Shown in pieces: positions 13,978 through 37,783 of a DNA stretch of 64,000 nucleotides. This DNA is from Maritalea mobilis (lineage in GTDB: Bacteria; Pseudomonadota; Alphaproteobacteria; Rhodobacterales; Rhodobacteraceae), in assembly GCF_019800885.1 (NCBI RefSeq), contig NZ_JAHVKE010000002.1:682001-746000 (forward strand). The letters run 5' to 3'. The notes under the pieces were generated by a model, which was not told the DNA's origin, did no database searches, and was given only the letters and a program-made list of their open reading frames with translations. Positions within the stretch are counted from its first letter, which is position 1. Every line of letters begins with the position of its first letter. A program made the position numbers and the translations under genes.

Positions 13978-14829
13978 TCACCGACCGTGGCTTCGGTCGT
14001 AGCCGTTCACGGGCGGCGGGGTGTGGCCCGGTGTGGCGGCACAGTCGAATACCTCGACCAGCAAAGGATGGCATGGCGCGGTGTCGCTGGAATGCTCGGC
14101 CCCGCAATCGCCGCCCGGGCAGGCGGACAGCGCACCCAGCAGGTCGATCTCGGCCAGGAAATCGATGTGGTCGCCGGGGCGCACGGGGCTGGCCTTCATG
14201 AAATACTGCCCGGTGTCACGGGTAAATCCGGTGCACATGAAGACGTTCAGCACGTCATGGACATGCCCCTCGGCCTTGGCTAGCGGCAGGCCGGTTTCAT
14301 CAGTCAGCGCGCGGGTCAGGTTGGAATGGCAGCAGTGGTGATACTGCCCGCCAGACAGAAGGTTGTGCGTGTAGGGATCGCATCGCGTGCCGATCACGTC
14401 ATGGACCGAGCCGCCGAATTCGTCGATGCCGTACCACTCCAGCGTATCGGCGACGATGGTGGCCATGGGGCGCAGGGCCGGAAAGCTCGACCACAGCCGA
14501 TCGCCGGTCGTCACGTGGGTCCCGTGCAGCGCGCGGGTTTTCCCCGAATAGAACCGTTCCGACAGATCGGCAGCGTTCCACAGGTTCAGGTCGCCTACTT
14601 GCGGCCCCTCGACCGAGGTGATGCGAAACACCTGCCCGGCCGCAACGCGGAAACAACGCGCCTCGCGAGGGGGCACCAGAACCTCGGCCCGTTTCACCAG
14701 CCCTTCGCGGGCGGCGGCCATGACCGTTGGGTCGGGCGCGGGCAGCGTGTCGACCGGGTAGCAGATCACCGGCGCGATCGCGCGGCGGGCATCGGCATCA
14801 GCCGGGGGGCTGGGCGGGGTCTGGGGCAT
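13978..14829 (-). CDS. DUF1989 (urea carboxylase-associated family) protein
   Basis: A 283-residue protein with the DUF1989 domain found in urea carboxylase/urea amidolyase-associated proteins, some of which are thought to bind metal or small amines. Recognisable conserved blocks are VEGPQVGDLNLWNA, RTRALHGTHVTTGDRLWS (here SGKTRALHGTHVTTG), GTRCDPYTHNLL, HHCCHSNLTRAL and VLNVFMCTGFTRDTGQYF; His and Cys in the last blocks suggest a metal site. The frame is open from 14916; the ATG at 14829 (MPQTPPSP) has GGAG 9 bases upstream. It lies next to the ornithine decarboxylase gene, hinting at nitrogen or amine metabolism. No enzyme activity is claimed. Confidence 0.8.
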   Translation of the reverse strand: MPQTPPSPPADADARRAIAPVICYPVDTLPAPDPTVMAAAREGLVKRAEVLVPPREARCFRVAAGQVFRITSVEGPQVGDLNLWNAADLSERFYSGKTRALHGTHVTTGDRLWSSFPALRPMATIVADTLEWYGIDEFGGSVHDVIGTRCDPYTHNLLSGGQYHHCCHSNLTRALTDETGLPLAKAEGHVHDVLNVFMCTGFTRDTGQYFMKASPVRPGDHIDFLAEIDLLGALSACPGGDCGAEHSSDTAPCHPLLVEVFDCAATPGHTPPPVNGYDRSHGR

Positions 14830-14953
14830 CCTGTGCGGGCTCCTGCGTCTTGCCGAACGAGGGTTTGCGCGGCGCAGCCGTGGCAGGGCCGGAGCAATCC
14901 TCGTTTCTCGTCGCATACATGGTCAGGGCCAGCGCGAGGAAGGCAAGGGTCAA
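14798..14953 (-). CDS. Possible 51-aa single-pass membrane protein (TTG start)
   Basis: Short open frame that begins directly after the TGA of the 49-residue ORF, in the same reading frame, with TTG as the only available start. It encodes one hydrophobic segment at the N terminus (LTLAFLALALTMYA) followed by a polar Pro/Ala-rich tail. It has no separate ribosome site and would depend on coupling or readthrough. It overlaps the start of the DUF1989 gene by 32 bases in a different frame. Shown because the membrane segment plus hydrophilic tail is protein-like; it may not be translated. Confidence 0.3.
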   Translation of the reverse strand: MTLAFLALALTMYATRNEDCSGPATAAPRKPSFGKTQEPAQDAPDPAQPPG

Positions 14954-15301: not shown

Positions 15302-16081
15302 TCAGAGCTGCCGCTCGACCATCATCTTCTTGATCTCTGCGATGGCCTTGGCCGGGTTCAGACCCTTGGGGCAGGTCTTGGCGCAGTTCATGATCGTGTG
15401 GCAACGGTAGAGCTTGAACGGATCTTCCAGGTCGTCCAGACGCTCGCCCGTCGCCTCGTCGCGGCTGTCGATGATCCAGCGATAGGCATGCAGCAGCGCG
15501 GCGGGCCCGAGGTAGCGGTCGCCGTTCCACCAGTAGCTGGGGCAGGAGGTCGAGCAGGACGCGCACATCACGCATTCATAAAGACCATCGAGTTTCTTGC
15601 GATCCTCGATCGACTGGCGCCACTCGTGTTCGGGGCGCTGCGTCTTGGTCTCCAGCCACGGCATGATGCTGGCATGCTGGGCGTAGAAATGTGTCAGGTC
15701 CGGTATCAGGTCCTTGACCACGGGCATGTGGGGCAGGGGGTAGATCTTCACGTCGCCCTTGATCTCGTCCATGCCGTAGATGCAGGCCAGCGTGTTGATC
15801 CCGTCGATATTCATCGCGCAGGACCCGCAGATGCCCTCGCGGCAGGAGCGGCGGAAGGTGAGCGTCGGGTCGATCTCGTTCTTGATCTTGATCAGCGCGT
15901 CCAGAACCATCGGCCCGCACGTGTCCATGTCGACCCAGTAGGTATCAACGCGCGGATTTTCCCCGTCATCGGGGTTCCAGCGATACACTTGGAACTTGCG
16001 CAGGTTCGTGGCGCCCTCGGGCTTGGGCCATGTCTTGCCGGTCTTGATCCGGGAATTCTTGGGCAGGGCCAGTTCAACCAT
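15302..16081 (-). CDS. sdhB: Succinate dehydrogenase iron-sulfur subunit
   Basis: Electron-transfer subunit of complex II, carrying electrons from the flavoprotein to ubiquinone. All three cluster motifs are intact: [2Fe-2S] in [12 protein letters not shown] (about residues 80-91), [4Fe-4S] in [16 protein letters not shown], and [3Fe-4S] in [17 protein letters not shown]. At 259 residues it is full length. Last gene of sdhCDAB, 33 bases after sdhA, followed by a terminator. Confidence 0.98.
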
Positions 16082-16114: not shown

Positions 16115-17938
16115 TCAGTAGACGCGCGCCTTGGGCTTGATCTTGTCGAGGTCGATGCCGCCCTCGTTGTGGCCGATCAGCGGGTTCAGGTGCACCGGGC
16201 GGTAATCCAGCTCGACCTTCTCGCCATCGACGACGGCCAGCGTGTGCTTGCGCCAATTGTCGTCGTCGCGGTCCGGGTAATCCTCGTGCGCGTGGGCGCC
16301 GCGGCTTTCCTTGCGCGCCTCGGCCGAGACGATGGTCGCCATCGCGTTCGGCATGAGGTTGGTCAGCTCCAGCGTTTCCATCAGGTCCGAGTTCCAGATC
16401 AGCGACTTGTCGGTCACGTGCAGGTCGTCGAGCTTGGCCGCGACGCCCTTCATCTTCTCGACCCCTTCGGCCAGCGTCTTGTCGGTGCGGAAGACGGCGG
16501 CGTCGGCCTGCATTGTCTTCTGCATCTCAAGGCGCAACTCGGCGGTCGGCGTGTTGCCGTTCGCGTGGCGGATGTCGTCGAAGCGCGACAGCGCGTAGTC
16601 GAGCGAGGCGCGCGGCACGTCCGGCGTCGCCTCGGACGGGTCCACCACCTCGGCCGCGCGAATGCCGGCGGCCCGCCCGAACACCACGAGGTCGATCAGG
16701 CTGTTGGAGCCGAGGCGGTTCGCCCCGTGCACCGAGGCACAGCCAGCTTCGCCCACGGCCATCAGGCCCGGCACGATTGCATCGGGGTTGTCCTTGGTCG
16801 GGTTCAGCACCTCACCCCAGTAGTTCGTGGGGATGCCGCCCATGTTGTAATGCACCGTCGGCAGAACCGGGATCGGTTCTTTCGTGACATCGACGCCGGC
16901 AAAGATGCGCGCCGATTCCGAGATGCCCGGCAGGCGCAGGGCCAGCGTTTCGGGCGGCAGGTGGTTCAGGTGCAGGTGGATGTGGTCCTTGCCTTCGCCC
17001 ACACCGCGGCCTTCGCGGATCTCCATCGTCATGCAGCGGCTGACCACATCGCGCGACGCGAGGTCCTTGTAGGTCGGAGCGTAGCGTTCCATGAACCGCT
17101 CGCCCTCGGAATTGGTCAGGTAGCCGCCTTCGCCGCGCGCACCCTCGGTGATCAGGCAGCCCGCGCCGTAAATGCCGGTCGGGTGGAACTGCACGAACTC
17201 CATGTCCTGAAGCGGCAGGCCCTGGCGCGCGACCATGCCGCCGCCGTCGCCGGTGCAGGTATGCGCCGAGGTGGCCGAGAAATAGGCGCGGCCATAGCCA
17301 CCCGTGGCCAGCACGACCATTTTGGAGCGGAACACATGCAGCGTGCCGTCATCCAGTTTCCACGCGACGACGCCGACGCAGCGGCCATCCTCGGTCATCA
17401 GCAGGTCGGTGGCGAAATACTCGATGTAGAATTCCGCGTTGTTCTTCAGCGACTGGCCATAGAGCGTGTGCAAGATGGCGTGGCCGGTGCGGTCGGCGGC
17501 GGCGCAGGTGCGCTGCACCGGGGGGCCTTCGCCGAACTCGGTCGTGTGACCGCCAAAGGGGCGCTGGTAGATCTTGCCCTCTTCGGTGCGGCTGAAGGGA
17601 ACGCCGTAATGTTCCAGCTCGTAGACAGCCTTGGGCGCTTCGCGGGCGAGGTATTCCATCGCGTCCGTGTCGCCCAGCCAGTCCGACCCTTTCACGGTGT
17701 CGTACATGTGCCAGTGCCAGTGATCCGGCCCCATGTTGCCCAAGCTTGCGGCGATGCCGCCCTGCGCGGCCACCGTGTGGCTGCGGGTCGGGAACACCTT
17801 GGTCACACAGGCGGTCTTGAGGCCCTGTTCGGCCATGCCGAGCGTGGCGCGCAGGCCAGAGCCGCCCGCGCCGACGACCACGACGTCATAGTCGTGCTCG
17901 GTGATGTCGTAGCTTGCTGTGGAAGCCATATCTTTCAT
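16115..17938 (-). CDS. sdhA: Succinate dehydrogenase flavoprotein subunit
   Basis: Oxidises succinate to fumarate at a covalently bound FAD on the cytoplasmic side of complex II. Rossmann motif [13 protein letters not shown] near the N terminus, the flavinylated His in [13 protein letters not shown], active-site HTC in [13 protein letters not shown], substrate-binding [13 protein letters not shown] and catalytic Arg region [14 protein letters not shown] are all present. The ATG at 17938 (MKDMASTA) is preferred over 17929 because GGAG lies 10 bases before it. 607 residues, normal length; third gene of the operon, 18 bases after sdhD. Confidence 0.98.
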
Positions 17939-17956: not shown

Positions 17957-18328
17957 TCAGAGCGCGATTTGCGCCAGCGCGACGATGCCCGCGGCCGCAA
18001 GGCCGTAGCTGACGATCGTCATGGCGATGATCCAGATCTTGCGGGACAGCCCGCCGACGTAATCCTCGATCAGCGTCGTCACGCCGAGGCGGAAATGATG
18101 CATGCCGACCACGAGGAAGGCGGCCACGATCAGCGCGGGCAAGGGACGCCCGAGGCTGGCCACCACCTCGTCGTGCGAGGCGCCCAGAAGCGGGCCCACG
18201 ATGGCGAGGAAGAAGGGCAACAGAACCAGCAGCGCCACCGAGGTGACGGTCATGGTCCAGAAGTGATGCGTCCCGGTATGAGCGGAGCCAAGGCCTTCGA
18301 CGCGCTTGCGGTCGGTCATGTATTGCAT
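17957..18328 (-). CDS. sdhD: Succinate dehydrogenase membrane anchor subunit D
   Basis: Hydrophobic anchor subunit helping to hold haem b and the quinone site. The 123-residue protein has three membrane helices (about residues 26-46, 60-82 and 93-120). The HHFRLGVTTLIEDYV stretch contains the probable haem-ligand or quinone-site residues. A GGGGG ribosome site precedes the ATG at 18328. It lies 13 bases after sdhC and 18 before sdhA. Confidence 0.93.
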   Translation of the reverse strand: MQYMTDRKRVEGLGSAHTGTHHFWTMTVTSVALLVLLPFFLAIVGPLLGASHDEVVASLGRPLPALIVAAFLVVGMHHFRLGVTTLIEDYVGGLSRKIWIIAMTIVSYGLAAAGIVALAQIAL

Positions 18329-18341
18329 GGCGTGGTCCCCC

Positions 18342-18725
18342 TCAGACGGCGATCAGCGTGATGATGGTCAGCAGGACCGAACCGATCAGCATGGCCCAAC
18401 CCATCTTGTCGGCGGTCTCGACCTCCAAGCCGCGGCCCGTGTCCCAGATCAGGTGCCGGATGCCGCCAAGCGCGTGATACCAGAGGCCCAGCACCGACAG
18501 CGACATGACGACGTCACCAAGGAAAGAAGTGATGAGCCCGTCCACCGTGTCAAAATAGGCGGCGCCACTTGCGGCCGCGATCAGCCACCAGACGATCAGG
18601 AAGGCCGAGACCAGCATCGCGTTGCCGGTGATGCGGTTCAGGATCGAGGTGATGGAGTTGAGCTGCGGGCGATACACCTGCAGATGCGGCGACAGCGGGC
18701 GGTTGCCGCGATTCACGTCGGCCAT
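18342..18725 (-). CDS. sdhC: Succinate dehydrogenase cytochrome b556 subunit
   Basis: Haem-binding anchor subunit of complex II. It shows the family start RPLSPHLQVYRPQLNSITSILNRITG, three membrane helices, and the haem-ligand region LWYHALGGIRHLIWD in the second half. The frame opens at 18734 (MSAMADV), but the ATG at 18725 (MADVNRGN) has GGGG 9 bases upstream, giving 127 residues. First gene of sdhCDAB. The upstream 135 bases contain an AATTTGA palindrome and the paired TGTGATCAC sites. Confidence 0.95.
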   Translation of the reverse strand: MADVNRGNRPLSPHLQVYRPQLNSITSILNRITGNAMLVSAFLIVWWLIAAASGAAYFDTVDGLITSFLGDVVMSLSVLGLWYHALGGIRHLIWDTGRGLEVETADKMGWAMLIGSVLLTIITLIAV

Positions 18726-18814
18726 GGCGGACACCCCTTTCGGTTTTGCTTTGGTCGGGTCGTTTGGCCTTTATCCATAGCGGGTTTTGCCGAACTGTCA
18801 CGCTGAATGGCGGG

Positions 18815-18830
18815 AATTTGAGGTCAAATT
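18815..18830. promoter_or_regulatory. Inverted repeat in the sdhC leader or promoter
   Basis: AATTTGA-GG-TCAAATT, a perfect 7-bp inverted repeat with a 2-bp centre, about 90-105 bases upstream of sdhC. It lies between the TGTGATCAC pair and the gene, AT-rich against a GC-rich background. Could be an additional operator; TTGACC within it on the minus strand could also act as a -35 element. Confidence 0.4.
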
Positions 18831-18858
18831 CTGGGTCTAAACGCCGCAATTTTCGATT

Positions 18859-18889
18859 TGTGATCACGAAATTTCAGCGTGTGATCACG
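18859..18889. promoter_or_regulatory. Paired TGTGATCAC operator sites upstream of sdhC
   Basis: Two copies of TGTGATCACGA on the plus strand with palindromic cores GTGATCAC at 18860-18867 and 18881-18888, spaced 21 bp centre to centre (two helical turns). They lie 135-163 bases upstream of sdhC. The same core, pair number and 21-bp spacing recur upstream of sucC at 26757-26787. The 8-bp GT-N4-AC palindrome is compatible with a GntR-type dimer, but the regulator is not identified. Confidence 0.65.
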
Positions 18890-18894
18890 AAAAA

Positions 18895-18924
18895 GCCCGC
18901 CACGGCGATCATGCTGCGGCGGGC
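18895..18924 (-). terminator. Terminator of the DoxX gene
   Basis: On the minus strand, GCCCGCC (18924-18918), a long loop and GGCGGGC (18901-18895) are followed by TTTTTCG. It lies 20 bases after the stop of the DoxX gene and ends at the edge of the TGTGATCAC sites of sdh. Confidence 0.7.
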
Positions 18925-18944
18925 CCGTTTGCGAAAGACTCAGC

Positions 18945-19379
18945 TCAGGCGGCGTTGCCGCGCAGGCTGAAGAACAGGCCGGTTGCTAGGAGCAGAACCT
19001 GGAACTCCATGCCGCCCGCCGGGTGCGTTTCCGAGGGCAGGGCACTCCACTGGCCCCAATGCACGAGGTAGACCGCGCCGATCATGATGACGATGACCGA
19101 CAGGCCGCCGAGACGGGTCAGCACGTCACCGAGTTTCGACGACATCAGGCCGCCGGCCAGAAGGGCGACGCCGCCCACGACTTCCAGAACCGCCACGAGG
19201 GTCCAGAGCGCCAGGGGCAGGCCCATGAACTCAGCCCCGGCTGCGAGCGACGGGAACTTGTCGATGCCGTGATAGATGAAGGTAGCCGCGACCGAGGCGC
19301 GAAGCAGCCAATGGGCGGCGGGAGTGGTGGGAAGCGACAGGGCGGTCGAGCCGCTGTTATTGGTGGTGATGCTGGACAT
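18945..19379 (-). CDS. DoxX family membrane protein
   Basis: A 144-residue integral membrane protein of the DoxX family, small four-helix proteins often linked to redox or oxidative-stress systems. Helix I carries the family-like WLLRASVAATFIYHGIDKF (about residues 23-42). Helices follow at about 55-78 (LWTLVAVLEVVGGVALLAGG), 90-108 (GGLSVIVIMIGAVYLVHWG) and 125-139 (FQVLLLATGLFFSL). The start ATG is at 19379 inside a longer open frame; the upstream part is not DoxX-like. It lies between the mch gene and sdhC on the same strand and ends in its own terminator. Substrate or partner unknown. Confidence 0.85.
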   Translation of the reverse strand: MSSITTNNSGSTALSLPTTPAAHWLLRASVAATFIYHGIDKFPSLAAGAEFMGLPLALWTLVAVLEVVGGVALLAGGLMSSKLGDVLTRLGGLSVIVIMIGAVYLVHWGQWSALPSETHPAGGMEFQVLLLATGLFFSLRGNAA

Positions 19380-26756: not shown

Positions 26757-26787
26757 TGTGATCACACTTTTTCAAGCTGTGATCACA
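26757..26787. promoter_or_regulatory. Paired TGTGATCACA operator sites upstream of sucC
   Basis: Two perfect 10-bp palindromes TGTGATCACA at 26757-26766 and 26778-26787, 21 bp apart centre to centre, 110-140 bases upstream of sucC. The arrangement is the same as at 18859-18889 upstream of sdhC. Direct observation; binding protein unknown. Confidence 0.65.
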
Positions 26788-26896: not shown

Positions 26897-28090
26897 ATGA
26901 ACATTCATGAATACCAAGCGAAGGCCCTGCTTCGCGACTACGGCGCCCCGGTTTCCGAAGGTCACATCGTGACCCGGGCCGAAGAGGCTAAGACCATCGC
27001 AGGCGAACTCGACGGCCCCATTTGGGTGGTCAAGGCGCAGATCCACGCAGGCGGCCGCGGCAAGGGCCACTTCGTCGAGGAAAGCGCCGGCGAAAAGGGC
27101 GGTGTCCGCCTCGCCAAGTCGGTCGAAGAGGCCGCCGAGGAAGCCAAGAAGATGCTGGGCCGCACCCTGGTCACGCACCAGACGGGCCCCGCCGGCAAGC
27201 AGGTCAACCGCGTCTATATCGAAGATGGCTCCGACATCTCGCGCGAGCTTTACCTCGCCTTCCTCGTCGACCGTCAGACCAGCCGCATCTCGATCGTCGC
27301 CTCCACCGAAGGCGGCATGGACATCGAGGAAGTCGCGGCCTCGACCCCTGAAAAGATCCTGAACTTCTCGATCGACCCGGTCACGGGCTTCATGCCCTAC
27401 CACGGCCGCCGCGTCGCCTTCGCCCTCGGGCTGGAAGGGCTCCAGGTCAAGCAATGCGTGTCGCTCCTCGGTTGCCTCTACAAGGCCTTCACCGAGAAGG
27501 ACATGGAGATGCTCGAGATCAACCCGCTGATCGTCACCACCGATGGCAACCTCAAGCTGCTCGACGCCAAGCTGGGCTTCGACGGCAACGCGCTCTACCG
27601 CCAGCCCGACGTGGCCGACCTGCGCGACGAGACCGAGGAAGACGCCAAGGAACTCGAAGCGTCCAAGTATGACCTCAACTACATCGCGCTGGATGGTGAG
27701 ATCGGCTGCATGGTGAACGGCGCGGGCCTGGCCATGGCGACGATGGACATCATCAAGCTCTACGGGTCCGAGCCGGCCAACTTCCTCGACGTGGGCGGCA
27801 GCGCCACCAAGGAAAAGGTCACCGAGGCGTTCAAGATCATCACCTCGGACCAGAACGTGAAGGGCATCCTCGTCAACATCTTCGGCGGGATCATGCGCTG
27901 CGACATCATCGCCGAGGGCGTCATCGCCGCCGTGCAGGAAGTGGGCCTTCAGGTTCCGCTGGTGGTGCGCCTGGAAGGCACCAATGTCGAGAAGGGCAAG
28001 GAGATCATCGCATCCTCCGGCCTGAACGTGATTGCGGCCGACGACCTGTCGGACGCCGCCGAGAAGATCGTGAAAGCGGTGAAGGGGTAA
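26897..28090 (+). CDS. sucC: Succinyl-CoA synthetase beta subunit
   Basis: ATP/GTP- and succinate-binding subunit of succinyl-CoA synthetase (TCA cycle substrate-level phosphorylation). ATP-grasp domain starting [19 protein letters not shown], with [15 protein letters not shown]; the C-terminal ligase domain contains [17 protein letters not shown] and [15 protein letters not shown]. 397 residues, normal. First gene of sucCD, 4 bases before sucD; the TGTGATCACA pair lies upstream. Confidence 0.98.
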
Positions 28091-28094
28091 GAAA

Positions 28095-28976
28095 ATGGCA
28101 GTCCTCGTCGACGAAAACACCAAGGTGATCTGCCAGGGCTTCACCGGCTCTCAGGGCACCTTCCACTCCGAACAGGCCATCGCCTACGGCACCAAGATGG
28201 TCGGTGGCGTGACCCCGGGCAAAGGGGGCATGACCCACCTGGACCTGCCCGTCTTCAACTCGGTGCACGAAGCCAAGCACGCGACCGAGGCCAACGCCAC
28301 GGTCATCTACGTGCCGCCGCCGTTCGCCGCCGACTCCATCCTCGAGGCGATCGACGCCGAGATGGAGCTGATCTGCTGCATCACCGAGGGCATTCCGGTC
28401 CTCGACATGATGAAGGTCAAGCGCGCGCTGGAAAGCTCGTCCTCGGTCTTGATCGGCCCGAACTGCCCCGGTGTCATCACGCCTGACGCCTGCAAGATCG
28501 GCATCATGCCTGGCCACATCCACAAGCGCGGCAAGGTCGGCGTCGTCTCCCGCTCGGGGACGCTGACCTACGAGGCGGTCAAGCAGACCACCGATGTGGG
28601 CCTTGGCCAGTCGACTTGCGTCGGTATCGGCGGCGACCCGATCAAGGGCACCGAGCATATCGACGTGCTGGAATGGTTCCTCGCCGATGACGAGACCGAG
28701 GCGATCATCATGATCGGCGAGATCGGCGGCTCGGCCGAAGAGGAAGCCGCGCAATTCCTCGCCGACGAGAAGAAAAAGGGCCGCTGGAAGCCGACCGCAG
28801 GCTTCATCGCGGGCCGCACCGCCCCTCCGGGCCGTCGCATGGGCCATGCCGGCGCCATCGTCGCCGGCGGCAAGGGCGGCGCCGAGGACAAGATCGAGGC
28901 GATGAAATCCGCCGGGATCGTGGTTGCCGAAAGCCCCGCCTCTCTGGGCGAGGCGGTGGTTCAGGCCATCGGCTGA
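28095..28976 (+). CDS. sucD: Succinyl-CoA synthetase alpha subunit
   Basis: Subunit carrying CoA and the phosphohistidine intermediate. N-terminal CoA-binding [19 protein letters not shown], the [10 protein letters not shown] segment, and the active-site histidine in [15 protein letters not shown] near residue 250 are all present. 293 residues, normal. It lies between sucC (4-base gap) and the DUF805 gene (70-base gap). Confidence 0.98.
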
Positions 28977-30201: not shown

Positions 30202-33162
30202 ATGACCGATCAAAGCCCCAACGATCAGTTCCACGCCTCAAGCTTCATGCAGGGGCACAACGCCGCCTATCTCGAACAGCTTTACGCGCAATACGCCAAC
30301 GACCCCGCCGCGGTGGACGAGGGCTGGCGCGCCTTCTTCGAAGCCCTGGGCGATTCCGAGATCGACGTGAAAGCCGAGGCGCAGGGCCCGTCCTGGGCGC
30401 GCCCCGACTGGCCGCCGCAGCCCGCCGATGACTGGACCAACGCCCTGACCGGCGAATGGCCGGCGGCGCAGGCCGAGGTCAAGGAAGCGGGCCGCAAGAT
30501 CAAGGAAAAGGCGCTCGAAAAGGGCGTCGAGCTGAGCGACCAACAGGTGCAACGCGCCGTGCTGGATTCGATCCGCGCGCTCATGCTCATCCGGGCCTAC
30601 CGGATCCGGGGGCATCTGGTGGCCGATCTCGACCCGCTTGGCATGCGCGACCAGACCCCGCATCCCGAGCTTGATCCGAAATCCTACGGCTTCACCGAGG
30701 CCGACATGGATCGCCCGATTTTCCTCGACAACGTGCTGGGGCTTCAGACCGCCTCGATCCGGCAGATCGTCGAGATCGTGAAGCGCACCTATTGCGGCAC
30801 CTTCGCGCTGCAATACATGCACATCTCCGACCCCGAGCAGGCCGCCTGGCTGAAGGAGCGGATCGAAGGTTTCGGCAAGGAAATCGCCTTCACCCGCGAA
30901 GGGCGCAAGGCCATCCTGAACAAGATGGTCGAGGCCGAAGGCTTCGAGAAATTCCTGCACGTCAAGTACATGGGCACCAAGCGTTTCGGCCTCGATGGCG
31001 GCGAGTCGCTGATCCCCGCGATGGAGCAGATCATCAAGCGCGGCGGCGCCCTCGGCGTGAACGAGATCGTCATCGGCATGCCGCACCGGGGCCGCCTGTC
31101 GGTTCTGGCCAACGTGATGCAGAAACCCTATCGCGCCATCTTCAACGAGTTCCAGGGCGGCAGCTTCAAGCCCGAGGATGTGGACGGCTCGGGCGACGTG
31201 AAATACCACCTCGGTGCCTCCAGCGACCGGGAGTTTGACGGCAACACCGTTCACCTGTCGCTGACGGCCAACCCCTCGCACCTGGAGGCGGTGAACCCCG
31301 TCGTTCTGGGCAAGGTTCGCGCCAAGCAGGACCAGTTGGGCGATGCCGAGCGCAAGCAGGTTCTGGGCGTGCTTCTGCACGGCGACGCGGCCTTTGCAGG
31401 CCAGGGCATCGTGGCCGAGGGCTTTGGCCTCTCGGGCCTGCGCGGGCACCGCACCGGCGGCACGATCCATTTCGTGGTGAACAACCAGATCGGCTTCACC
31501 ACCGCGCCGCATTTCTCGCGCTCCTCGCCCTATCCGACGGACATCGCCCTGATGGTCGAGGCGCCGATCTTCCACGTGAACGGTGACGACCCCGAGGCCG
31601 TGGTTCACGCCGCCAAGGTCGCGATCGAGTTCCGCCAGATGTTCGGCAAGGACGTGGTCATCGACATGTTCTGCTACCGCCGGTTCGGTCACAACGAGGG
31701 CGATGAGCCCATGTTCACCAACCCGCTCATGTACAAGAAGATCAAGACGCAGAAGACCACGCTGCAGATCTACACCGAGCGGCTGGTGAAGGACGGCCTG
31801 ATCCCCGAGGGCGAGATCGAGGACATGAAGGCCGCCTTCCAGGCGCATCTGAACGAAGAGTTCGAGCGCGGCAAGGAATACAAGCCCAACAAGGCCGACT
31901 GGCTGGACGGGCGCTGGTCGCACCTCAACCGCGAGGGCGAGGAATACCAGCGCGGCGAAACCGCCATCGCGCCCGAAACCATGGCCGAGGTCGGGCGTGC
32001 CCTGACCACCGCGCCCGAGGATTTCACCCTGCACAAGACGGTGGGCCGCCTGCTCGAGTCGAAAAAGCAGATGTTCGAAACCGGCCAGGGGTTCGACTGG
32101 GCCACAGCCGAGGCGCTGGCCTTCGGCAGCCTGCTGACCGAAGGCTACCCCGTCCGCCTGTCGGGGCAGGATTCGACGCGGGGCACGTTCAGCCAGCGGC
32201 ACTCCGGCCTCGTCGATCAATCGACCGAGGATCGCTACTATCCGCTCAACCACATCCGCGAGGGGCAGCAGAAATACGAGGTCATCGACTCGATGCTGTC
32301 GGAATACGCGGTGCTCGGGTTCGAATACGGCTACTCGCTGGCCGAACCCAACGCGCTGGTGATGTGGGAGGCCCAGTTCGGCGATTTCGCCAACGGCGCC
32401 CAGATCATGTTTGACCAGTTCATCTCGTCGGGCGAACGCAAGTGGCTGCGCATGTCGGGCCTTGTCATGCTGCTGCCGCACGGGTTCGAAGGGCAGGGGC
32501 CGGAACACTCCTCGGCCCGCCTCGAACGCTTCCTGCAGATGTCGGCCGAGGATAACTGGATCGTCGCCAACTGCTCGACCCCGGCGAACTATTTCCACAT
32601 CCTGCGCCGCCAGATCCATCGCAGCTTCCGCAAGCCGCTGGTCCTGATGACGCCGAAATCGCTTCTGCGGCACAAACTGGCGATCTCGGATGCCGAGGAT
32701 TTCACCACCGGGTCCAGCTTCCACCGCGTGCTGTGGGATGACGCCGAAAAGGGCCATTCCGACACGAAGCTCAAGGCCGACGACAAGATCCGCCGCGTCG
32801 TGATCTCGTCGGGCAAGGTCTATTACGACCTGCTCGAAGAACGCGACGCCCGTGGGATCGACGACGTTTACCTCCTGCGTCTCGAACAGTTCTACCCCTT
32901 CCCGGCGCTCGCGCTGATGAAGGAGTTGGAGCGTTTCAAGGGCGCCGAGATCGTTTGGTGCCAGGAAGAGCCCAAGAACCAGGGCGCCTGGACCTTCGTC
33001 GAACCGAACCTCGAATGGGTGCTGGGCCGCATCGGCGCCACCCATTCGCGCCCCCGTTACGCCGGTCGCGCCGCCAGCGCCTCGCCGGCAACGGGTCTCG
33101 CCAGCCAACACAAATCCCAACAAGCCGCGCTCGTGAACGACGCGCTGACCATCGAAGGGTAA
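30202..33162 (+). CDS. sucA: 2-oxoglutarate dehydrogenase E1 component
   Basis: Thiamine diphosphate-dependent decarboxylation of 2-oxoglutarate and succinylation of the E2 lipoyl group. 986 residues. The N-terminal E2-binding tail is SFMQGHNAAYLEQLYAQYAN; the ThDP motif has GDAAFAGQG with NNQIGFT; active-site stretches include GMPHRGRLSVLANV, RFGHNEGDEP, SQRHSGLVDQ and HGFEGQGPEHSSARLERF. An AGGAG site precedes the ATG. sucB follows after 6 bases. Confidence 0.98.
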   Translation: MTDQSPNDQFHASSFMQGHNAAYLEQLYAQYANDPAAVDEGWRAFFEALGDSEIDVKAEAQGPSWARPDWPPQPADDWTNALTGEWPAAQAEVKEAGRKIKEKALEKGVELSDQQVQRAVLDSIRALMLIRAYRIRGHLVADLDPLGMRDQTPHPELDPKSYGFTEADMDRPIFLDNVLGLQTASIRQIVEIVKRTYCGTFALQYMHISDPEQAAWLKERIEGFGKEIAFTREGRKAILNKMVEAEGFEKFLHVKYMGTKRFGLDGGESLIPAMEQIIKRGGALGVNEIVIGMPHRGRLSVLANVMQKPYRAIFNEFQGGSFKPEDVDGSGDVKYHLGASSDREFDGNTVHLSLTANPSHLEAVNPVVLGKVRAKQDQLGDAERKQVLGVLLHGDAAFAGQGIVAEGFGLSGLRGHRTGGTIHFVVNNQIGFTTAPHFSRSSPYPTDIALMVEAPIFHVNGDDPEAVVHAAKVAIEFRQMFGKDVVIDMFCYRRFGHNEGDEPMFTNPLMYKKIKTQKTTLQIYTERLVKDGLIPEGEIEDMKAAFQAHLNEEFERGKEYKPNKADWLDGRWSHLNREGEEYQRGETAIAPETMAEVGRALTTAPEDFTLHKTVGRLLESKKQMFETGQGFDWATAEALAFGSLLTEGYPVRLSGQDSTRGTFSQRHSGLVDQSTEDRYYPLNHIREGQQKYEVIDSMLSEYAVLGFEYGYSLAEPNALVMWEAQFGDFANGAQIMFDQFISSGERKWLRMSGLVMLLPHGFEGQGPEHSSARLERFLQMSAEDNWIVANCSTPANYFHILRRQIHRSFRKPLVLMTPKSLLRHKLAISDAEDFTTGSSFHRVLWDDAEKGHSDTKLKADDKIRRVVISSGKVYYDLLEERDARGIDDVYLLRLEQFYPFPALALMKELERFKGAEIVWCQEEPKNQGAWTFVEPNLEWVLGRIGATHSRPRYAGRAASASPATGLASQHKSQQAALVNDALTIEG

Positions 33163-33168
33163 GAAGAC

Positions 33169-34692
33169 ATGTCGATCGAAGTTCGCGTCCCCACCTTGGG
33201 CGAAAGCGTCACCGAAGCCACCGTGGCCACCTGGTTCAAGCAGCCGGGCGATTCCGTCGCGGTGGACGAAATGCTCTGTGAGCTGGAAACCGACAAGGTG
33301 ACGGTCGAGGTGCCCAGCCCCGCCGCCGGCACGCTTGGCGAAATCGTCGCCGCCGAGGGCGAGACCGTGGGCGTCGACGCGCTCCTCGCCACGCTCAGCG
33401 AAGGGGAGGGCGCTGCCCCCGCCGCCAAGCCCGAAGCCAAGGCCGAGGCCGCGCCCGAAGCCTCGGGTGGCGGGGAAGCCGTCGACGTGATGGTCCCCGC
33501 GCTTGGTGAAAGCGTGACCGAGGCGACCGTCTCGACCTGGTTCAAGAAAGCGGGCGACACGGTCGCGCAGGACGAAATGCTGTGTGAGCTGGAAACCGAC
33601 AAGGTCTCGGTCGAGGTTCCGGCCCCCGCCGCCGGTGTCCTGTCCGAGATCCTCGCCGGTGAAGGCGACACGGTCGAAGCGGGTGGCAAGCTTGCCATTC
33701 TGACAGCAGGCGAAGGCGCGGCCGCCTCGGCCCCCGCCGCCGCCCCGGCCCCGCAGGCCGCCGCCCCCGCATCCAGCACCGGCAAGGATGTCGAAGATGC
33801 CCCGTCGGCCAAGAAGCTGATGGCCGAAAAGGGCATCGACCCGGCCAACGTGCAAGGCACCGGCAAGGATGGCCGCATCATGAAGGAAGACGTGATGAAG
33901 GCCGCCTCGGGCGCTGCCGCCGCCGTAACCGCCGCTGCCCCGGCCCCTGCGCCTGCCGCCGCCCCCCGCGCGCCCAGCCCGGCCGAGGACGCCGCGCGCG
34001 AGGAGCGGGTCAAGATGACCCGCCTGCGCCAGACCATCGCCCGCCGCCTCAAGGACGCGCAGAACACCGCCGCGATCCTGACCACCTATAACGAGGTGGA
34101 CATGACCGAGGTCATGGCGCTCCGCAACCAGTACAAGGACGCCTTCGAGAAGAAGCACGGCGTGCGCCTCGGCTTCATGTCCTTCTTCACCAAGGCCTGC
34201 TGCCACGCGCTGCGCGAAGTGCCCGAGGTGAATGCCGAGATCGACGGGCAGGAGATCGTTTACAAGAACTTCGTGCACATGGGCATCGCCGCCGGCACGC
34301 CCCAGGGCCTCGTCGTGCCCGTCATCCGCGACGCCGACCAGATGTCCTTTGCCGATCTCGAAAAGGCGATCGCCGAGAAGGGCAAGCGCGCCCGTGACGG
34401 CAAGCTCTCGATGGCCGAGATGCAGGGCGGCACCTTCACCATCTCGAACGGGGGTGTCTACGGCTCGCTCATGTCCTCGCCCATCCTGAACCCGCCGCAA
34501 TCGGGTATCCTGGGCATGCACAAGATCCAGGAACGCCCGATGGTCATCAACGGCGAGATCAAGATCCGCCCGATGATGTACCTGGCCCTCAGCTACGACC
34601 ACCGCATCGTCGACGGCAAAGGTGCTGTGACCTTCCTCGTCCGCGTGAAAGAGGCGCTGGAGGATCCCCGTCGCCTGCTGATGGATCTGTAA
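33169..34692 (+). CDS. sucB: Dihydrolipoyl succinyltransferase (E2) with two lipoyl domains
   Basis: Transfers the succinyl group to CoA in the 2-oxoglutarate dehydrogenase complex. Two lipoyl domains in tandem: lipoyl lysines in [11 protein letters not shown] (about residue 43) and [11 protein letters not shown] (about 145), each preceded by [12 protein letters not shown]. Then come an Ala/Pro linker, the E3/E1-binding domain ([20 protein letters not shown]) and the catalytic domain with [14 protein letters not shown]. coli SucB has one lipoyl domain; two are common in this bacterial family. An extragenic palindromic element follows the stop. Confidence 0.98.
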
Positions 34693-35297: not shown

Positions 35298-36686
35298 ATG
35301 TCCCAGTACGATGTGATCGTGATCGGCTCCGGCCCCGGCGGCTATGTCTGCGCCATCCGCTGCGCGCAACTGGGCCTGAAAACGGCCTGCGTCGAAGGGC
35401 GCGAGACGCTTGGCGGCACCTGCCTCAATATCGGCTGCATCCCGTCCAAGGCGCTGCTGCATGCCTCCCACCAGCTGCATGAAGCGGAACACAATTTCGC
35501 GAAAATGGGCCTCAAGGGCAAATCCCCGTCGGTCGACTGGAAACAGATGCAGGCCTACAAGGACGACGTGATCGGCCAGAACACCAAGGGCATCGAATTC
35601 CTGTTCAAGAAGAACAAGATCGACTGGCTGAAAGGCTGGGGCTCCATCCCCGAGGCCGGCAAGGTCAAGGTCGGCGACGAGGTGCACGAGGCGAAAAACA
35701 TCATCATCGCAACGGGGTCCGAGCCTTCGGCGCTGCCCGGAATCGAGATCGACGAGAAGGTTGTCGTAACCTCCGAGGGCGCGCTGTCGCTGCCCAAGAT
35801 CCCCAAGAAGATGGTCGTGATCGGCGCGGGCGTCATCGGGCTGGAGCTTGGCTCGGTCTATGCCCGCCTGGGCGCCGAGGTGCAGGTGATCGAATTCCTC
35901 GACCAGATCACGCCCGGCATGGACGGTGAGGTCTGCAAGACCTTCCAGCGCCTTCTGGCGAAACAGGGCCTGTCCTTCACCCTCGGCGCGGCGGTCCAGT
36001 CGGTCGAGGCGACCAAGACCAAGGCCAAGGTCACCTACAAGCTGCGCAAGGATGACAGCGAGGCGACCGTCGATGCCGATGTCGTTCTGGTGGCGACGGG
36101 CCGCAAGCCCTATACGGATGGGCTTGGCCTCGACGCCCTCGGAGTCGAGATGTCCGAGCGCGGCCAGATCAAGACCGACGGCCACTGGGCCACGAATGTG
36201 AAGGGCGTCTACGCCATCGGCGACGCCATCGCCGGCCCGATGCTGGCCCACAAGGCCGAGGATGAGGGCATGGCCGTGGCCGAGGTGGTCGCGGGCAAGC
36301 ATGCGCACGTGAATTACGACGTGATCCCGGGCGTGATCTACACCCACCCCGAAGTGGCCAGCGTCGGCCAGACCGAGGAGGCCCTGAAAGAGGCGGGACG
36401 CGCCTACAAGGTGGGCAAATTCTCGTTCATGGGCAACGGCCGCGCGAAGGCGAATTTCGCCGCCGATGGTTTCGTCAAGATCCTGGCCGACAAGGAGACC
36501 GATCGCATTCTGGGTGCGCATATCATCGGGCCGATGGCGGGCGATCTGATCCACGAGATCTGCGTCGCGATGGAATTCGGCGCCAGCGCGCAGGACCTTG
36601 CACTGACCTGCCACGCGCACCCGACCTATTCCGAGGCCGTGCGCGAAGCGGCGCTGGCCTGCGGTGACGGGCCGATCCATAGCTGA
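35298..36686 (+). CDS. lpd: Dihydrolipoamide dehydrogenase (E3)
   Basis: FAD enzyme reoxidising dihydrolipoyl groups of the 2-oxoacid dehydrogenase complexes with NAD+. FAD motif [19 protein letters not shown], redox disulfide in [19 protein letters not shown] motif [19 protein letters not shown], and the C-terminal catalytic His in [14 protein letters not shown]. 462 residues, normal. It lies about 600 bases downstream of sucB with MAPEG between. The next gene may start 23 bases inside it. Confidence 0.98.
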
Positions 36687-37129: not shown

Positions 37130-37783
37130 TCAGGTGGCGAGGAGCCGCAGGCCCTGGGTCACATCGGCCCGCACGGCGAGTCGCAGGCCGGGTTCGTCGC
37201 CTGCCTTCAGCGCGGCGAGGATCAGCTTGTGGTGCTGCGGCGGTTCGGTGCGGTTCAGCCGCCCGTAAAGCGCGCGCATCGTGGGGCCGAGTTGCAGCCA
37301 GACTGTTTCGGCCAAGGCCAGCATCGCCGGGGCCTGCGCGCGCAGGTAGAGCGTGCGGTGAAACTCGAGGTTGGAGCGGATATAGGCGACCGCGTCGCGG
37401 CGGGCGACGTTCTGGGCGATGGCGGCATTGATCGCTTCCATGCGCTCGATCAGCGCCGGATGTGCGCGGGGCAGGGCGCGGGCGGACAGCTCGGGTTCCA
37501 GAAGCGCGCGGATCGCGGCCAGTTCCTCGATGCGTTCGTTCGAGAGCTCGGGCGTCGAGACACGGCCCGAGGCGGAGAGAAACAGCGCGCCTTCGGAGAC
37601 CAGCCGCCGGACGGCCTCGCGCGCGGGGGTCATGGAGACGCCGAATTCGCGGCCCAGACCGCGCAGGGTCATGGCCTGCCCCGGGCCGACCTCGCCATGC
37701 ATGATGCGCGAGCGCAGGGCGCGGTAGACCCGGTCATGGGCAACGGCGGCGCCGGTATCGGTGGGGCGGGGGTTCATCAGCAT
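37130..37783 (-). CDS. GntR family transcriptional regulator with FCD domain
   Basis: DNA-binding regulator of the FadR subfamily, 217 residues. The N-terminal winged helix (about residues 15-75) shows VYRALRSRIMHGEVGPGQ, LGREFGVSMTPAREAVRRL and the wing GRVSTPELS. The C-terminal all-helical FCD effector domain (about 82-210) has SNLEFHRTLY and PQHHKLILAALKAGD, where His residues may bind metal. Ligand unknown. The regulator lies just beyond the lpd gene on the opposite strand, 9 bases downstream of the YgjP gene. FadR-type proteins bind short GT/AC palindromes, so it is one candidate for the TGTGATCAC sites; this is inference. Confidence 0.88.
   Translation of the reverse strand: MLMNPRPTDTGAAVAHDRVYRALRSRIMHGEVGPGQAMTLRGLGREFGVSMTPAREAVRRLVSEGALFLSASGRVSTPELSNERIEELAAIRALLEPELSARALPRAHPALIERMEAINAAIAQNVARRDAVAYIRSNLEFHRTLYLRAQAPAMLALAETVWLQLGPTMRALYGRLNRTEPPQHHKLILAALKAGDEPGLRLAVRADVTQGLRLLAT

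Follow-up and report, generated by a model that had tools for sequence, protein, structure and literature searches.

The closest described system to the one analysed here is that of AkgR in Rhodobacter (Cereibacter) sphaeroides, a protein that we take to be the GntR regulator RSP_0981. In the excerpts of the literature available to us, AkgR is called a transcriptional activator and GTGATCAC is among its reported sites (PMC6365646), while the predicted targets of RSP_0981 are sucCD, sdh and sucAB, the genes for 2-oxoglutarate dehydrogenase (PMC4344238). The regulator, its site and its targets are therefore known in outline, the sites coming from the former source and the predicted regulon from the latter. 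The same GTGATCAC has been proposed as the site of PS417_07240-type regulators, found with deoxyribonate clusters in Pseudomonas and Burkholderia and 32% identical to AkgR (PMC6365646). That system resembles the present one in its palindrome and differs in its layout: there a catabolic cluster has the palindrome at its positions -47 to -40, with neither a pair of sites nor a TCA operon mentioned in the available part of the paper (PMC6365646). The sdh genes of R. sphaeroides have also been linked to CceR and NtrC (PMC11323563; PMC4344238). CceR (RSP_1663) belongs to the LacI family, counts sdh and other central carbon genes among its predicted targets, and has the motif [AGT]GTT-N6-8-AAC[ACT] (PMC4344238). 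The excerpts available of PMC4419725 and PMC7471390 add nothing on the site.

Here, we followed up an earlier note on a window of Maritalea mobilis DNA, meaning the whole stretch of 64,000 nucleotides that was analysed, in which two GTGATCAC palindromes had been noticed upstream of sdhCDAB. We report that the finding is genuine and conserved, an instance of the AkgR regulon, with direct binding predicted from the sequence together with the literature. It shares with the R. sphaeroides system the GTGATCAC site (PMC6365646) and the targets sdh, sucCD and sucAB (PMC4344238). What is added here is a family-wide tandem layout at 21 bp, occasional in-register triples, fixed distances to promoter-like elements, and signs of joint decay of regulator and site; the available parts of PMC4344238 and PMC6365646 contain no description of the tandem layout.

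Tandem boxes upstream of sdhCDAB and sucC

The palindrome GTGATCAC occurs at positions 18860-18867 and 18881-18888, each time as part of TGTGATCACGA, and the two copies are 21 bp apart from start to start. The first of these boxes is proximal to sdhC and its end lies 134 bp from the sdhC start; the second is distal. A further pair, read in the sequence upstream of sucC, consists of a distal box at 26758-26765 and a proximal box at 26779-26786, each within TGTGATCACA, again 21 bp apart, with 110 bp from the proximal box end to the sucC start. Both pairs are as the earlier note described them, with the spacing that it gave; the boxes were assigned no strand. The window as a whole holds six TGTGATCAC matches, the two sucC boxes being counted on both strands, against 0.57 expected, and none of 100 dinucleotide shuffles reached at least six.

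The operon behind the first pair runs on the minus strand and comprises sdhC (18342-18725; Pfam Sdh_cyt on the frame 18342-18734, the start at 18725 having been set by comparison), sdhD (17957-18328; Sdh_cyt), sdhA (16115-17938; FAD_binding_2 and Succ_DH_flav_C) and sdhB (15302-16081; Fer2_3 and Fer4_8). On the plus strand, the second pair is followed by sucC (26897-28090; ATP-grasp_2 and Ligase_CoA), sucD (28095-28976; CoA_binding and Ligase_CoA), the 2-oxoglutarate dehydrogenase genes sucA for E1 (30202-33162; E1_dh and OxoGdeHyase_C) and sucB for E2 (33169-34692; 2-oxoacid_dh and Biotin_lipoyl), and lpd for the E3 dihydrolipoamide dehydrogenase (35298-36686; Pyr_redox_2 and Pyr_redox_dim). 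Judging by this gene order, sucAB-lpd would use the sucC promoter. A consensus scan of 18700-19000 returned neither a promoter nor a terminator; a -35-like GTGACA at 18796-18801 on the minus strand begins 58 nt past the sdh pair. Two side observations concern the surroundings of the operon. By eye, a GC-rich inverted repeat occupies 18889-18928, between the distal sdh box and the DoxX gene beyond it (18945-19379, minus strand), and is possibly the DoxX terminator. Past sdhB, at 13978-14916 and on the same strand, lies a gene for a DUF1989 protein.

On its own, GTGATCAC is a common word, found at 65 places in the source genome of 3,668,924 bases, so that its description as a rare palindrome was overstated: what is rare is the pair. 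From 65 sites in a genome of this size, about 0.001 pairs are expected at any one spacing. Scanning with spacers of 11-15 returned two exact pairs, those at sdh and suc, and no match in the backward control over the same spacers; the pair is thus not scattered at random through the genome. When two mismatches were allowed at N13, two extra places appeared, both within coding frames, namely a 5'-nucleotidase/metallophosphatase-like frame and fliP, and both were rejected as additional targets.

Three other kinds of operator were compared with the boxes. CRP-type sites have the form TGTGA-N6-TCACA; in each sucC box TGTGA and TCACA abut with zero spacer, and this reading was discarded. LytTR-type operators are 9-bp direct repeats with a spacer of about 12 bp, which the box spacing would fit, but the units here are palindromes and it is a GntR protein that tracks the motif. 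CceR was likewise set aside: sdh is among its predicted targets, but the GTGATCAC boxes do not fit GTT-N6-8-AAC (PMC4344238).

Conservation across the family and the class

We surveyed 198 genomes of the family to which the source belongs, one per genus. At least one exact pair was present in 175 of the 198 genera, and the backward control gave 0 in each genome. Among the pair-bearing genera, 38 had one match, 132 had two and five had three, a total of 317 as tallied by eye with a triple box scoring twice. We opened 77 of these 317 pairs, namely all 75 of the matches listed and the two of the source genome. Of these, 35 precede sdhC and 40 precede sucC; of the remaining two, one stands before a sucA gene, with E1_dh and 2-oxogl_dehyd_N domains, and the other before a fumC-like gene. 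All 77 are co-oriented with the TCA gene downstream. The earlier note had reasoned that absence of the pair from sdh and suc in close relatives, or a lack of enrichment upstream of TCA genes, would refute its reading; the opposite was found on both counts, with only one to three matches in any pair-bearing genus.

At the sdhC and sucC loci among the opened pairs, the distance from the pair end to the gene start ranges from 96 to 191 bp. The spacer is 13 in 68 of the 75 sdhC/sucC pairs and 12 in the other seven; spacing and placement are kept while the letters of the spacer vary. Flanking the boxes, T is preferred before and AAA after. The genome presumed to be R. sphaeroides (G051) carries the same pairs before sucC and sdhC (L156, L157), a further likeness to the AkgR regulon.

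These data bear on another alternative, namely a repeat that arose by chance or has no regulatory role, such as a methylation site or a hairpin. The abundance of the single word (65 places) and the GATC that it contains could be cited in its favour, but two pairs against about 0.001 expected, the presence of the pair in so many genera, and a spacing and place that are conserved around varying spacer letters already contradict it, and we give it next to no credence. The regulatory reading implies instead a narrow and widely kept regulon, in which, across the 175 of 198 genera, one regulator would serve usually two operons and three successive steps of the TCA cycle.

Outside the family the pair is scarce. 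When 385 genomes from across the class were sampled, the five family members carried two pairs each, and 2 of the 380 genomes of other families carried one each; the backward control of this sample was positive in one of the 385 (G271, five places). One of the two outside pairs (G399) falls within an inositol-phosphatase-like frame and was rejected. At the other (G344; L199, 972-1020), two GTGATCAC boxes separated by N13 are accompanied by a ATGATCAC box 20 bp further up, and the GntR gene downstream of them is 31% identical to the akgR candidate described below. From its sequence, this looks like an autoregulated relative that shares the operator form.

Genera that depart from the usual two pairs

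The 38 single-pair genera were searched for SdhC; 35 gave a match and 30 loci were opened. A site with at most two mismatches precedes sdhC in 16 of these 30 genomes, and in two of the 16 it is exact; none of 150 shuffles gave such a site. Counting exact pairs alone thus underestimates how widely the sites occur. In the other 14 of the 30, no pre-sdhC site was found with at most two mismatches at spacing 12-13; sdh is therefore not always a target, and some genera appear to have retained the pair at one operon only.

Of the 23 genera in which no exact pair was found, 17 yielded a sucC locus with an identity of 73% or more. The best pre-sucC match has one mismatch in G040, four in G157 and three to seven in the other 15. 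The G157 match lies at the usual distance from sucC and may be a relic; shuffling of sdhC regions gave four mismatches 3 times in 150, so it could also be chance.

A candidate GntR/FCD regulator that tracks the pair

A candidate akgR gene (P0001, 217 amino acids) lies at 37130-37783 on the minus strand, adjoining lpd, and its product matches Pfam GntR and FCD above the cut-offs. Among solved sequences, McbR comes nearest (4p9f, E 4.6e-22); 103 of the 217 positions are invariant in 32 aligned relatives, and outside the family identity falls to 38-42% among the top matches listed. No GTGATCAC with at most one mismatch was found just before the gene, so no autoregulation via this motif is apparent.

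Relatives of P0001 at E < 1e-60 occur in 171 of the 175 pair-bearing genera and in 5 of the 23 pair-less ones (Fisher p = 1.4e-17, with an E cut-off picked after the values had been seen, and with neither a correction for relatedness nor a control gene). As for these five, G040 has the one-mismatch pair before sucC mentioned above; in G122 and G155 SucC was not found, and in G147 and G166 the SucC relative is only 52-53% identical, so these four cannot be judged for want of a proper sucC match. Conversely, the best P0001 match in four pair-bearing genomes is weaker, at 48% identity in G033, 37% in G019, 35% in G114 and 31% in G096. The G033 match shares a contig with the suc pair of that genome and is perhaps a divergent P0001 copy; the G114 assembly is rated 100% complete.

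Two pair-less genomes hold damaged relatives of P0001: in G157 the gene has four internal stops (G157:C5:11649-12295; L316, L324), and in G109 it is broken over several frames (G109:C56:33054-33640; L319). Regulator and site thus seem to decay together, allowing that both drafts may hold assembly errors. On the best tree of SucC fragments (57 rows), the pair label changes seven times. The tree is poorly resolved, however, and its well supported branches give just one independent comparison; parallel loss of the pair is therefore suggested, not proven. The genera that lack the system, or seem to be losing it, offer natural comparisons.

In the presumed R. sphaeroides genome, a GntR gene follows sdhB, separated from it by one small frame; its product is about 80% identical to P0001 and 94% identical to a GntR protein of Cereibacter ovatus. 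The gene place thus differs, the candidate here adjoining lpd, and the position in G051 suits that of RSP_0981 beside the sdh genes RSP_0974-6 (PMC4344238). This agreement also weighs against the alternative that the pair is bound not by P0001 but by a different GntR/FCD paralogue or by some unrelated factor. There is room for such a factor: the source genome has 16 GntR-domain matches, GTGATCAC is also the suggested site of a Pseudomonas regulator that shares no more than 32% identity with AkgR (PMC6365646), the G344 pair precedes a GntR gene just 31% identical to P0001, and G019, G096 and G114 have the pair and no close P0001 relative. With P0001 relatives nevertheless tracking the pair across the family, and broken copies in the pair-less G157 and G109, we consider this alternative clearly improbable. 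The regulator of the pair is most probably AkgR, encoded by the candidate gene at 37130-37783. The proposal in the earlier note of a single regulator for both operons accordingly gains a named protein, since AkgR fits the co-occurrence, the broken copies and the available parts of PMC4344238 and PMC6365646; that note had mentioned neither the candidate gene within the window nor the regulon as already described.

Promoter geometry and proposed action

Elements resembling promoter parts stand at set distances from the pairs. GTGAC starts 57-60 nt past the pair in 26 of 35 sdhC loci and occurs anywhere between pair and gene start in 29 of 35, against 4.3 expected after shuffling. At sucC, a CGTTTA-like element lies 44-46 nt past the pair in 26 of 40 loci, as found by a simple two-block motif search that is small, home-made and run on the same data. 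Both elements resemble a -35, each set at its own fixed distance.

Taking the sequence and the literature together, the paired palindromes very probably are tandem operators of AkgR, which would activate the sdhCDAB and sucC promoters from upstream. One AkgR dimer would bind each GTGATCAC box. With the boxes two helical turns apart, the dimers would sit on the same face of the DNA, probably touching, and together they would assist RNA polymerase at both promoters. Activation of both promoters would then raise succinyl-CoA synthetase, 2-oxoglutarate dehydrogenase and complex II together, that is, three consecutive TCA steps. A repressor role for AkgR at these loci, which would be in keeping with the general behaviour of GntR/FCD proteins, often repressors, appears very unlikely: the R. 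sphaeroides protein is called an activator (PMC6365646), and the pair is upstream of the -35-like elements by about 45 to 60 nt, without overlapping them.

A stricter version of the activator model, to which we give an even chance, holds that AkgR works as an obligate phased array, with boxes exactly two turns apart at a fixed promoter distance, forming a dedicated 2-oxoglutarate-to-fumarate switch in most of the family that is kept or lost with its regulator. The rigid layout makes both cooperative binding and promoter geometry directly testable.

Third boxes and additional matches

An extra upstream box (one mismatch, 21-22 bp off) accompanies 3 of the 75 sdhC/sucC loci, against 1 of 375 background windows. 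Among 80 named loci, 21 have an sdhC or sucC match; 11 of these carry an exact pair, one (L230) a pair with one mismatch, and nine end too near the gene start for a pair to be visible. Three boxes in 21-bp register are present at two of the loci, L246 and L251, and L246 has a fourth further off. Triple boxes in the same register occur at G135:C8:374318-374367 and G191:C11:327609-327658.

Such arrays help to weigh the possibility that the boxes are bound independently, the 21-bp spacing merely adding occupancy with no contact between dimers. A spacer of 12 is tolerated besides 13 (7 of 75 sdhC/sucC pairs), which speaks for independent binding. On the other side, only 12 and 13 occur among the 75 sdhC/sucC pairs in scans that allowed 11-15, spacings of 11 (in a coding frame of G189) and 15 (before a transporter gene in G159) were each met once, and third boxes hold the 21 bp in four genomes. 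We regard independent binding as possible, on the unlikely side; the third boxes favour the dimer-of-dimers arrangement that the earlier note had suggested and that we infer here.

The five three-match genera are those of G135, G191, G189, G159 and G042. The spacing-11 match of G189 was rejected as a target, being inside a metallo-beta-lactamase-fold frame. That of G159 with a spacer of 15 (L298, 1501-1531; G159:C113:16762-16792) is followed, about 70 bp on, by a transporter frame (Pfam Mem_trans). In G042, the third exact pair precedes a Lyase_1-domain gene, fumC by eye (L118, 601-1227), and the AkgR regulon may extend to fumarase in this genus.
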